In this document: positions 8,908 through 13,459 of the stretch, in pieces
Numbering within the stretch: position 1 is the first letter of the stretch
Layout of the letters: each line of letters opens with the position of its first letter
Made by a program: the position numbers and the translations under genes
Assembly (NCBI GenBank): GCA_017962235.1
Contig: JAGCVS010000009.1
Coordinates: 1 to 64,000, forward strand
DNA from: Bacteroidales bacterium
GTDB lineage: Bacteria > Bacteroidota > Bacteroidia > Bacteroidales > UBA932
Reading direction: 5' to 3'
DNA: 64,000 bases
Notes under the pieces: generated by a model
Databases searched by the model: none
The model's input: the letters and a program-made list of their open reading frames with translations, nothing else
What the model was told of the DNA's origin: nothing

Positions 8908-8926
8908 TGCTGCGAAGGTAATAAAA

Positions 8927-8959
8927 TTTGGACAATAAACACAGAAGGACTATATTTGC
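8927..8959 (+). promoter_or_regulatory. rimP-nusA-infB promoter
   Basis: TTTG (8927-8930), a 20-nt spacer and TATATTTGC (8951-8959) match the Bacteroidota -33/-7 consensus exactly. The start of transcription is expected a few bases downstream, near 8963-8966, leaving a leader of about 40 nt before the rimP ATG. Confidence 0.8.
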
Positions 8960-8968
8960 ACGCGAATT

Positions 8969-9000
8969 CGAGGGGCTGGGTAAGTCCCTCGGTTTTTTTT
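8969..9000 (+). terminator. terminator-like hairpin in the rimP-nusA-infB leader
   Basis: CGAGGG (8969-8974) pairs with CCCTCG (8986-8991), extended by G-U pairs at both ends of the stem, and is followed by an uninterrupted run of eight T (8993-9000). This has the form of an intrinsic terminator but lies between the promoter and the rimP ATG (9005). It could therefore act as an attenuator of the operon, which encodes the termination factor NusA. No alternative antiterminator pairing is obvious. Confidence 0.65.
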
Positions 9001-9004
9001 AATT

Positions 9005-9466
9005 ATGAAGCAGGCAGACATATTAAGGGCAGCCGCTGAAGAATATGCGGCACAACACGGAATGTTTGTGATATCGGTGGAGATATCCAAAGACAACGAC
9101 GTGGACGTAACAGTGGATGCGGACAGCCGCGACATCACTCTGGACGACTGTGTTGGAATGACAGAGTTCATCCACTCCAAAGTTGACCGGGACGTTGAGG
9201 ACTACGCCCTCACAATCGGATCGGCGGGCCTAACTTCCCCCTTCAAAGTGCCGCGTCAGTGGCGCAAGGCGGTGGGCAGCGAGATCTGGCTCACCCGTCT
9301 TTCCGGAGAGCGCGTGCGCGCCACCGTTGTTTCTGCAGACGATGAGGGGGCGGAAGTCTCCTACCTGAAGAAGGCGGAGGGCAAGGGTGCCAAGGCCAAA
9401 GAGACCGTTACAGAACGCCTCGCTTACAGCGAAATCAAATCAGCAAAACCAATAATTAAATTCTAA
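9005..9466 (+). CDS. rimP: ribosome maturation factor RimP
   Basis: A 153-residue protein needed for late assembly of the 30S subunit. The N-terminal alpha/beta domain (about 1-75, with DVTVDADSRDITLDDCVGMT) and the C-terminal SH3-like barrel (about 80-153, starting after GSAGLTSPFKVPRQW) are both recognisable. It is the first gene of the rimP-nusA-infB operon, an order conserved across bacteria. The stop is 8 nt before nusA. No Shine-Dalgarno is visible: the ATG follows an oligo-T stretch. Confidence 0.93.
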   Translation: MKQADILRAAAEEYAAQHGMFVISVEISKDNDVDVTVDADSRDITLDDCVGMTEFIHSKVDRDVEDYALTIGSAGLTSPFKVPRQWRKAVGSEIWLTRLSGERVRATVVSADDEGAEVSYLKKAEGKGAKAKETVTERLAYSEIKSAKPIIKF

Positions 9467-9474
9467 ATACAATA

Positions 9475-10716
9475 ATGGAAGTAAATCTTGTCAGCACTTT
9501 CGCTGAATTCAAAGAGGGTAAGAACATTGACAGGCCCACGATGATGAGCGTCCTTGAAGAGGCGTTCCGCGCGCAGCTTGAAAAAATGTACGGAGAGGAT
9601 GCCAAGTTTGACATCGTGATCAACATAGACAAGGGTGACTTTGAGATATGGCGCACCCGCGAAGTGGTTGAGACAGTAGAGAATCCCGCAACTGAAATCT
9701 CCCTTGAAGAGGTCAGCAAGATAGACGACTCTTACGAGGTGGGCGAGGATTACACAGAGGAGGTCAAGCTCACCCAGTTTGGCCGCCGCGGTATCCTCAA
9801 CATCCGACAGAACCTCGCAGGCCGCATCATGGACCTGGAGAACGCAAACCTCTACAACCGCTACAAAGAGCGCATCGGCGAGATTATCGTAGGTCAGGTT
9901 CACCAGTCCTGGAAGAAAGAGACCATAATCCACGACGAGGAGAAGAACGAGCTGGTACTCCCCAAGACGGAGCAGATCCCCTCTGACTTCTTCCGTAAGG
10001 ACGACACCGTTAAGGCTATCATCACCAACGTGGAGATGAAGAACAACCGTCCCGTGATAACCCTGTCCCGTACCTCCAGCCTCTTTTTGGAGAAGCTGTT
10101 CGAGCAGGAGGTGCCCGAGATTTTCGACGGCCTTATCACCATCAAGAAGGTGGTCCGCATCCCCGGCGAGCGTGCCAAGGTGGCTGTTGAATCCTACGAC
10201 GACCGCATCGACCCCGTGGGCGCATGCGTGGGCGTGAAGGGTTCCCGTATCCACGGCATCGTGAAGGAGCTGCACAACGAGAATATCGACGTTATCAACT
10301 GGACCAACAACAAGCAGCTGCTCATCCAGCGCGCGCTCTCTCCCGCACGCATCTCCTCCATGGAGTTCGACGAGGCCAACAAGACCGTGAACGTATACCT
10401 GAAACCTTCAGAGGTATCGGTGGCTATCGGCAAGGGCGGCTGCAACATCAAGCTGGCCGGCATGCTGATAGATTACCAGATTGAGGCTTACCGCGAGGTG
10501 GACGAGGCCGAGGCTGCTGCAGAAGAAGAGGACGTATTGCTGGAGGACTTCAGCGACGAGATCGATCAGTGGATCATCGACGCTCTCAAGGCTATCGGTC
10601 TGGACACCGCCAAGAGCGTACTGGCACTCCCCGTAGAGGAAATCAGCCAGCGTGCAGACCTGGAAGACGAGACCGTAGAAGAGGTTCAGAGAATACTCCG
10701 TTCAGAATTTGAATAA
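9475..10716 (+). CDS. nusA: transcription termination/antitermination factor NusA
   Basis: A 413-residue RNA polymerase-binding factor that enhances pausing and intrinsic termination and takes part in antitermination. The N-terminal RNAP-binding domain (about 1-125) is followed by an S1 domain (about 130-200) and two KH domains (about 225-375); the motifs GVKGSRIHGIVKEL and IGKGGCNIKLAG carry the GxxG loops. An acidic linker precedes a C-terminal helix-hairpin-helix-like segment. Length is typical for Bacteroidota. It may regulate its own operon through the leader hairpin at 8969-9000 (inference). Confidence 0.96.
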   Translation: MEVNLVSTFAEFKEGKNIDRPTMMSVLEEAFRAQLEKMYGEDAKFDIVINIDKGDFEIWRTREVVETVENPATEISLEEVSKIDDSYEVGEDYTEEVKLTQFGRRGILNIRQNLAGRIMDLENANLYNRYKERIGEIIVGQVHQSWKKETIIHDEEKNELVLPKTEQIPSDFFRKDDTVKAIITNVEMKNNRPVITLSRTSSLFLEKLFEQEVPEIFDGLITIKKVVRIPGERAKVAVESYDDRIDPVGACVGVKGSRIHGIVKELHNENIDVINWTNNKQLLIQRALSPARISSMEFDEANKTVNVYLKPSEVSVAIGKGGCNIKLAGMLIDYQIEAYREVDEAEAAAEEEDVLLEDFSDEIDQWIIDALKAIGLDTAKSVLALPVEEISQRADLEDETVEEVQRILRSEFE

Positions 10717-10747: not shown

Positions 10748-13459
10748 ATGGCAAAAATCCGAGCAAGCAAGGTAGTTAAAGAGTTCAACATCGCCCTTTC
10801 CACTCTGGTGGAATTCCTCAAGAAGAAAGGGATAGAGATCGAGTCCAACCCGGGCGCGGTGCTCTCTGAAGATGCGTACGCATTGGTAGAGAAAGAGTTC
10901 GCCAAAGAACACCTGCTCAAAGAGCAGTCCCGCAAGGTGGCTATCTCGGTCAAGGAGATTACAGAAAGCGACAAGGCAAAGGCTCCGGCAGAAGAGCCGG
11001 AAGAGCTTATCATAAAGACCAACGTGCTTGACAGCAAGCCCGTGGTTCCCAAGCCCGCCCCCGCGCCCAAGCCGGTAAAGGAGAAGCCCGCTCCGGCACC
11101 CGCCCCCGAACCGGCGGCAGAAGAGCAGTCCTCTCCTGCAATCAAGGTGTTGGACAAGATAGACCTGGACGCTCAGAAGAAGCCCGCCAAGAAGGCGGAG
11201 CCCAAGCCTCAGCCAACTGAGCCAAAACCCGCTCCGGCTGCGGAGAAACCCGCTCCCGCCACTGAGGAAGAAGAGGCGCCCAAGGTTCCCGAGAAGCCCG
11301 TGATAGAGCACATCGAGACAAAGGTAGAGAAGCTCAAAGGCCCCGAAATCATTGGCAAGATTAACCTTGAAGAGACCAAGCCCGCTCCCCGCGACAAGCA
11401 GCGCGACAAGAACAAGAAGCGCGAGCGCATCCACAAGCAGACTGCAAAGGTCGATATCAGCCAGAGCGCAAACTACGGCAAGGACGACTCCCGCAGCCGC
11501 CGCAACAAGAAGAACCAGCGCGACAACATAAGCAAGTTTGTCCGCCCTGAGACTGACGAGGACGAGGTTCAGCGCCAGATCAAGGAGACCTACGCACGTC
11601 TCACAGAGAGCCGCAGCAAGACCAAGGGCAGCAAGCACCGCCGCGAGAAGCGAGAAATCTTCGAGCAGCGTCAGGAGGAGGCCATGCAGCAGGAGGCACT
11701 CACCAGCAACGTGCTCAAAGTCACCGAGTTCGTTACCGTTAACGAGCTGGCCATAATGATGAACAACACCCCCGTAACCAAGGTTATCGAGGCCTGCATG
11801 AACCTGGGACAGATGGTATCCATCAACCAGCGTCTGGAGGCCGACGCCCTGGTGCTTGTGGCAGAGGAGTTCGGATACAAGATCGAGTTCACCACTGCCG
11901 GAGAGCAGGAGGCACTGGAGCAGGAGGAAGACCGTCCGGAAGACCTGGTACCGAGGCCCCCGATCATCACAGTGATGGGTCACGTTGACCATGGTAAGAC
12001 ATCATTGCTGGACTACATTCGCAAGTCCAACGTGATTGCCGGTGAGGCGGGCGGTATCACCCAGCACATCGGTGCATACAACGTGAAGCTGCCCGACGGC
12101 CGCCACATCACCTTCCTGGATACCCCGGGTCACGAAGCCTTCACCGCAATGCGTGCCCGCGGTGCCAAGCTCACCGACATTGCCATAATCATTATCGCAG
12201 CCGATGACGCCGTGATGCCCCAGACAATCGAGGCTATCAACCACGCGCAGGCTGCAGGCGTGCCCATGGTGTTCGCAATCAACAAGATAGACAAGCCCGG
12301 CGCTAACGGGGAGAAGATCCGCGAGCAGCTGGCCAACATGAATATCCTTGTAGAGGATTGGGGCGGCAAATACCAGTGCCAGGAGATATCCGCAAAGAAG
12401 GGTATCAACGTGGACAAACTGCTGGACAAGGTGCTGCTCGAGGCCGACATGCTGGAACTCAAGGCTAACCCCAACAAGCGCGCCGTGGGCAGCGTGGTAG
12501 AGTCCTCCCTGGACAAGGGCCGCGGCTATCTGGCCACCGTGCTGGTACAGGCCGGAACACTCCATGTGGGCGATGTGGTGCTGGCAGGCTGCTACACCGG
12601 CCGTGTGAAGGCTATGTTCAACGAACGTGGCGCCAAGATAACCGAGGCTGGTCCTTCCACCCCTGTATCGGTGCTCGGTCTCAACGGAGCCCCCACCGCA
12701 GGTGACACCATCAACGTTCTGGAAGACGAGAAAGAGGCCAAGGAGATTGCCAACAAGCGCGAGCAGCTGCTCCGCATGCAGGGTCTGCGCGCTCAGCAGC
12801 ACGTCACTCTGGAGGAGATCGGCCGCCGTATCGCCATCGGCAACTTCAAGGAGCTCAACATCATTGTCAAGGCCGATGTGGACGGTTCCATCGAAGCTCT
12901 GGCAGACTCCCTTATCAAGCTCTCCACAGAGGAGGTCAAGGTCAACGTTATCCACAAGGCTGTGGGTGCCATCTCGGAATCCGATGTATTGCTGGCAGTT
13001 GCGTCCAACGCCATCATCATCGGCTTCCAGGTGCGTCCTTCTTCCGACGCCCGCCGTCAGGCAGAGAAGGAAGGCATCGAGATCCGCCTCTACTCCGTCA
13101 TTTACGACGCCATCAACGAGGTCAAGGACGGTATCGAGGGTATGCTTGCTCCGGAAGAGAAGGAAGAGGTTACCGCAACCGCAGAGGTACGCGAGACCTT
13201 CAAGATATCCAAGGTGGGCACCATCGCCGGCTGTATGGTCAAGGAGGGCAAGCTCACCCGCACCGCGAAGGTGCGCGTGATCCGCGACGGTATCGTGGTC
13301 TACACCGGCGTGCTCGGCTCCCTGAAGCGTTTCAAAGACGATGTGAAGGAGGTCGCTGCAGGTTACGACTGTGGTATGAACATAGAGAACTTCAACGACA
13401 TCAAGGTGGGCGACGTGATAGAAGCCTACACCATTGTTCAGATCAAGAGGACCTTATAA
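10748..13459 (+). CDS. infB: translation initiation factor IF-2
   Basis: A 903-residue GTPase that places initiator tRNA on the 30S subunit. An IF2-N helical domain (about 2-55, [17 protein letters not shown]) is followed by a long Pro/Ala/Lys/Glu-rich disordered linker (about 75-300), a second IF2-N-like domain (about 315-375), and the G domain with G1 GHVDHGKT near residue 410, DTPGHE and NKID. Domains II-IV complete the protein. The stop lies in a TTATAA shared with the converging reductase gene. Confidence 0.97.

Follow-up and report, generated by a model that had tools for sequence, protein, structure and literature searches.

A terminator hairpin conserved in the rimP-nusA-infB leader of Bacteroidota, probably a form of the rimP/nusA leader attenuator

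The rimP-nusA-infB operon in the window (the whole 64,000-nt stretch of Bacteroidales DNA analysed here) begins with a short leader in which promoter, hairpin and U-tract follow each other in this order. The arrangement is conserved phylum-wide in Bacteroidota, lacks an antiterminator and stays attached to nusA in operons without rimP. We regard it as probably the Bacteroidota form of the rimP/nusA leader attenuator, in which termination set by NusA would limit transcription of its own operon.

The leader in the window

Promoter elements, hairpin, U-tract and genes of the operon are located as follows.

8927 to 8930, plus strand: -33 promoter element TTTG, read from the sequence, with a 20 nt spacer to the -7 box
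8951 to 8958, plus strand: -7 promoter element TATATTTG of the rimP-nusA-infB operon, read from the sequence
8968 to 8992, plus strand: terminator hairpin UCGAGGGGCU-GGGUA-AGUCCCUCGG, 10 pairs, loop GGGUA, from terminator scan and fold
8993 to 9000, plus strand: U-tract, eight T in the DNA, from the sequence; expected termination point
9005 to 9466, plus strand: rimP, first gene of the operon, Pfam RimP_N with 23.3 bits (cut-off 22.7)
9475 to 10716, plus strand: nusA, Pfam NusA_N and KH_5
10748 to 13459, plus strand: infB (IF2), downstream in the same operon, Pfam IF-2 and GTP_EFTU

The promoter of Bacteroidota has the form TTTG-N19-21-TAnnTTTG, and the spacing at the rimP leader fits. The succession given in a first-pass annotation of this DNA, TTTG-N20-TATATTTG followed by a GC stem, eight U and the rimP ATG, was confirmed directly in the sequence. 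The distance between promoter and stem is short, as claimed, but with 9 nt separating the -7 box and the stem it lies slightly below the proposed 10–15 nt. Behind the U-tract, AATT leads to the rimP ATG at 9005, placing the start codon 4 nt past the U-tract and 12 nt past the end of the stem. The stem, GGGGCU..AGUCCC, folds with −17 kcal/mol (z = −4.7 against 200 dinucleotide shuffles), and in a mechanical scan the hairpin ranks as the top terminator-like site of the first 20 kb. A short RNA of about 36–40 nt is predicted to be released from this leader.

The neighbour upstream of rimP is lpxD (identified by Pfam), which is divergently oriented, and the hairpin therefore cannot be its 3' terminator. 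On both strands of positions 8908 to 8958 the lpxD and rimP promoters appear back to back and overlapping; AAGGTAATAAAATTTG within this stretch is conserved in close relatives of the window genus. On the minus strand, about 8 nt separate the end of a box of the TAnnTTCG type, TACCTTCG, from the lpxD ATG, so that the lpxD mRNA would be nearly leaderless.

Conservation, covariation and variants of the hairpin

Upstream regions of rimP were gathered from the genus, family, order, class and phylum of the window (n = 194) and scored for a terminator with at least 6 pairs, at least 4 of them G-C, and at least 5 T of 8. Such a terminator occurs in 24 of 25 leaders of the genus, 19 of 23 of the family, 65 of 70 of the order, 45 of 48 of the class and 21 of 28 of the phylum. 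In total, 174 of the 194 Bacteroidota leaders carry it, compared with 0.7–3.7% of dinucleotide shuffles, in accordance with the earlier expectation that hairpin and U-run upstream of rimP would be conserved in relatives. Carriers include Bacteroides caecigallinarum, Phocaeicola coprophilus and Pedobacter, as well as Mucilaginibacter, Marinilabilia and Parapedobacter. Downstream of rimP, nusA is found in 191 of 194 loci, the other three having too little downstream sequence.

The genomic background was estimated from the source genome (a 2.07-Mb assembly in 22 contigs, 99% complete), of which 20 stretches of up to 20 kb each, from 20 of the 22 contigs, were used together with the window. Upstream regions of divergent genes contained a terminator in 5 of 80 cases, with rimP scoring highest. 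The remaining four have their hairpin before the promoter box or after a tRNA, so that it belongs to an upstream unit; among the 80 sampled regions, a hairpin between promoter and start codon is seen at rimP alone. These four regions are what could be put forward for a hairpin that arose by chance or ends an upstream gene. Apart from the orientation of lpxD, however, the gene upstream of rimP is divergent in 105 of 162 Bacteroidia loci, and a TAnnTT[TC]G box lies at most 60 nt upstream of the hairpin in 146 of 153 Bacteroidia leaders; the next interval upstream, taken as control, contains the box in 12 of 173. Chance and an upstream-gene terminator were rejected on conservation and position, and their probability is practically nil.

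A multi-gene regulon sharing the hairpin motif is unsupported as well. The best hits of model R1 in the order are mostly located at rimP, and those elsewhere are weaker, resemble ordinary terminators and often occur on both strands. The model misses the copy in the window, which departs from the order consensus in stem and loop.

A GRGR..YCYC core with 6–11 nt between the arms is shared by 156 Bacteroidia leaders. The usual stem at order level is AUAGGGGAC-nnnn-GUCCCCUAUUUUAUUA, that of the window genus GAGGGGCU-GGGUA-AGUCCCUC. In hairpins of unequal loop length MAFFT placed no gaps in the loop; because the register of the arms was lost in this way, covariation was counted on 32 leaders with equal loops. 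In these, 95% of the cells are paired, a value that drops to 37–62% when the partner is slid. Changes on both sides of a pair amount to 27 cells versus 9.7 in shuffles, with none of 500 shuffles reaching as high.

The U-tract is conserved too, 150 of the 156 Bacteroidia leaders having 6 or more T among the 10 nt that follow the C block. At order and class level the tail consensus reads CCCC-U-N-UUUU-(A/U)-UU, often with an interruption of the U-run at the A/U position. From the end of the U-tract to the start codon the median distance is 10 nt, and the predicted short RNA has a median length of 44 nt across relatives. When the upstream leader was searched for an antiterminator, just one of 146 leaders contained 5 nt or more complementary to the 5' arm, so that none is possible in the other 145. 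Together with the shortness of the leader before the hairpin, this supports the previously suggested simple attenuator that works without antiterminator. The underlying assignment of an intrinsic terminator in the 5' leader is strongly supported by conservation, covariation, the conserved U-tract and the position between promoter and start codon.

Outside the class Bacteroidia the stem sequence differs, for example GUGGGG-GAU-CCCCAC or UUCGCCCC..GGGCGA, while hairpin and U-run are kept. Seven of these loci (L119, L123, L124, L126, L131, L132 and L134) show the reversed polarity CGCCC..GGGCG before a strong U-run; judged by these letters, the stem is replaced and the putative terminator retained. 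A stem that is swapped while hairpin and U-run persist is what selection on termination predicts. The converse is seen in three loci of the same family (L037, L040, L045), where the GGGGAC..GUCCCC hairpin is kept and the U-tract is poor (UUAUCGC, UUAUUGC). In some species conservation thus appears stronger for the stem than for the entire terminator, and the hairpin may have a role besides termination.

Such weak U-tracts, and the conservation of GGGGAC..GUCCCC beyond what termination requires, are in line with a hairpin that serves mainly as a 5' mRNA stabiliser, as a protein-binding or translation element or as the body of a small RNA, the U-tract being incidental. We consider this highly improbable in view of the U-tract conserved in nearly all Bacteroidia leaders and of the stem replacement with retained hairpin and U-run outside the class. 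The excess conservation nevertheless counts against a plain attenuator. Since the stem is kept beyond the needs of termination, even where the U-tract is weakened, GGGGAC..GUCCCC might instead be a specific recognition site, for the KH/S1 surface of NusA or for another factor, rather than a generic terminator. We think this unlikely; if it applied, NusA would sense its own leader by sequence plus U-tract, within about 40 nt that have remained attached to nusA throughout the phylum.

Further variants were noted at order level. L075, L077 and L164 have GAGGGGGCAAUNNUGUCCCCUCGUUUUUUUC in common; their inner stem contains a G-U wobble and their U-run is followed by a C, which suggests that stem variants are specific to lineages. 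In L139, L161, L316 and L317 the gene immediately preceding rimP or nusA encodes tRNA-Gln (TTG), an arrangement reminiscent of metY upstream of rimP in E. coli. Here, one transcript may cover both tRNA-Gln and the operon, with the hairpin between the two.

Operons without rimP and the proposed control by NusA

A search for nusA was made in the genomes that had given no rimP match. Three of them did contain rimP, in the usual arrangement; at 17 nusA loci nothing resembling rimP precedes nusA. The term rimP-less refers here to absence from the nusA operon, as a six-frame profile search also missed the rimP of the window genome itself. The promoter-hairpin-U leader stands directly before nusA in 13 of the 17 rimP-less operons, or in 15 with relaxed settings, against a shuffle rate of 0.5%; these cases come from at least eight families, and the hairpin usually follows the TAnnTT[TC]G box by 15–31 nt. 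As a control, the stretch before nusA in rimP-containing operons carries a terminator in 1 of 163 cases. The leader therefore follows nusA and not rimP. In one genus of the same family the order is divergent lpxD, promoter, GAGGACCUUGGUCCUC-U6 and nusA, which is what a loss of rimP from between leader and nusA would leave.

As the leader stays with nusA when the operon has no rimP, NusA is indirectly supported as the controlled or controlling gene. A requirement for RimP feedback was rejected for the same reason. Since infB follows nusA in 14 of the 17 operons, IF2 is not separable from NusA by this comparison.

For the attenuator we propose the following course. Transcription would start about 5 nt before the hairpin, and RNA polymerase would reach the intrinsic terminator within about 40 nt, with no antiterminator as an alternative. 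A fraction of the polymerases would stop and release the short RNA, whereas the remainder would read into rimP-nusA-infB. By strengthening intrinsic termination, NusA would set the stopping fraction; more NusA would mean more stopping and less transcript of the nusA operon. Termination in vivo, its partial nature and the NusA concentration as the controlling quantity are what we infer, and a NusA dependence of the leader is suggested by analogy to B. subtilis.

A terminator that acts constitutively and in part would lower operon expression by a fixed factor without feedback of any kind. No sensor or antiterminator is present in the leaders, and the strong stem and U8 of the window genus would terminate unaided. 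The terminator of the window, with this stem and U8, does not look suboptimal, which is a point against NusA dependence. On the other hand, a weaker promoter could achieve the same fixed effect, and retention across the phylum, including before nusA in rimP-less operons, is hard to reconcile with fixed tuning. Most intrinsic terminators of B. subtilis are NusA-stimulated (PMC12288461), making some response to NusA likely. Constitutive termination is in our view an unlikely explanation.

Control of the terminator by a different operon product or process, namely IF2, RimP or ribosome initiation disturbing the hairpin, appears very unlikely. It would profit from the closeness of the start codon behind the U-tract, from the retention of infB in rimP-less operons and from the mention of RimP as a candidate regulator in PMC2965389. 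RimP, however, is dispensable for the leader, which persists without it, and the ribosome site is transcribed only after the terminator has been passed, too late to act on the same transcript.

With the NusA-set attenuator as the preferred reading, NusA autoregulation becomes directly testable in Bacteroidota, a phylum in which termination factors are little studied and for which the leader of about 40 nt offers a compact test bed. The rimP-less operons set nusA apart from rimP as the object of control. Such autoregulation by a leader terminator has been shown in Bacillus and is suspected elsewhere; a minimal, antiterminator-free form across Bacteroidota, including gut genera, supports the idea of an old and general control of the termination machinery.

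Comparison with known systems

The rimP-leader was described in 2010 by Naville and Gautheret as the most ubiquitous attenuator, consisting of a GGGc..gCCC hairpin and a T-stretch 4–130 nt from the gene start, without antiterminator; NusA was proposed as its best candidate regulator (PMC2965389). Firmicutes and Gammaproteobacteria are named in the main text, Bacteroidota are not. The leader of the window shares with this description the position directly upstream of rimP-nusA-infB and the G-rich 5' and C-rich 3' arms, a polarity that is reversed in some other classes. Its T8 after the stem and the 12 nt to the start codon fall within the description, as does the lack of a visible antiterminator, a complement being present in only the one of 146 leaders. 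The Bacteroidia stem, GGGGAC..GUCCCC, is longer than the published motif.

Autoregulation of nusA through its leader in B. subtilis was reportedly established by Mondal et al. in 2016. In B. subtilis the nusA (ylxS) operon is autoregulated by NusA-stimulated termination in the 5' leader according to PMC12288461, citing its reference 34, with readthrough governed by the level of NusA. Both cases share a leader intrinsic terminator before the same operon, known in Bacteroidota from sequence. With about 180 nt (PMC2965389) the B. subtilis leader is longer than the roughly 40 nt of Bacteroidota, and its NusA dependence was demonstrated, whereas that of the Bacteroidota leader is presumed. A tie to nusA itself, as expected for an autoregulated leader of the B. 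subtilis type, is seen in the 13 rimP-less operons. NusA-dependent terminators typically have suboptimal, distally interrupted U-tracts, and distal interruptions are also frequent in NusG-dependent ones (PMC8060035); the order and class consensus is often similar, with A at the seventh tail position.

The gammaproteobacterial rimP leader RF01770 is different. With 102 nt and a tandem upstream terminator it is unlike the Bacteroidota leader; it scores 102 bits in E. coli K-12, where the element closes with GGGC-UUUA-GGCCC-U7 immediately before rimP. Its covariance model gave no match in the window or in 11 Bacteroidota loci, nor did any relevant Rfam family match the window or 11 relatives at a relaxed threshold. 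Rfam contains no Bacteroidota model for the rimP leader, and a covariance model of the present leader would supply one.

The first-pass annotation knew of no such leader in Bacteroidota, which is not quite right. A structured 5' element upstream of rimP is listed for Flavobacterium psychrophilum, conserved in Flavobacteriaceae and without Rfam hit (PMC9723704). It concerns the same gene and phylum, with the 5' transcript region seen experimentally, and is very likely the same element; the text gives no mechanism, terminator, extent beyond the family or link to nusA. Neither nusA nor rimP is mentioned in the main texts of published B. theta transcriptome papers or of large comparative RNA surveys.

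The kind of system is already known, from the rimP-leader and from NusA autoregulation by a leader terminator in B. subtilis. What is new, as far as can be seen from the literature, is the spread of the leader throughout the phylum Bacteroidota, a consensus supported by covariation, and its attachment to nusA where the operon lacks rimP. The Bacteroidota leader fits the broad rimP-leader family rather than RF01770 and, as far as can be told from its sequence, would work like the leader of B. subtilis.
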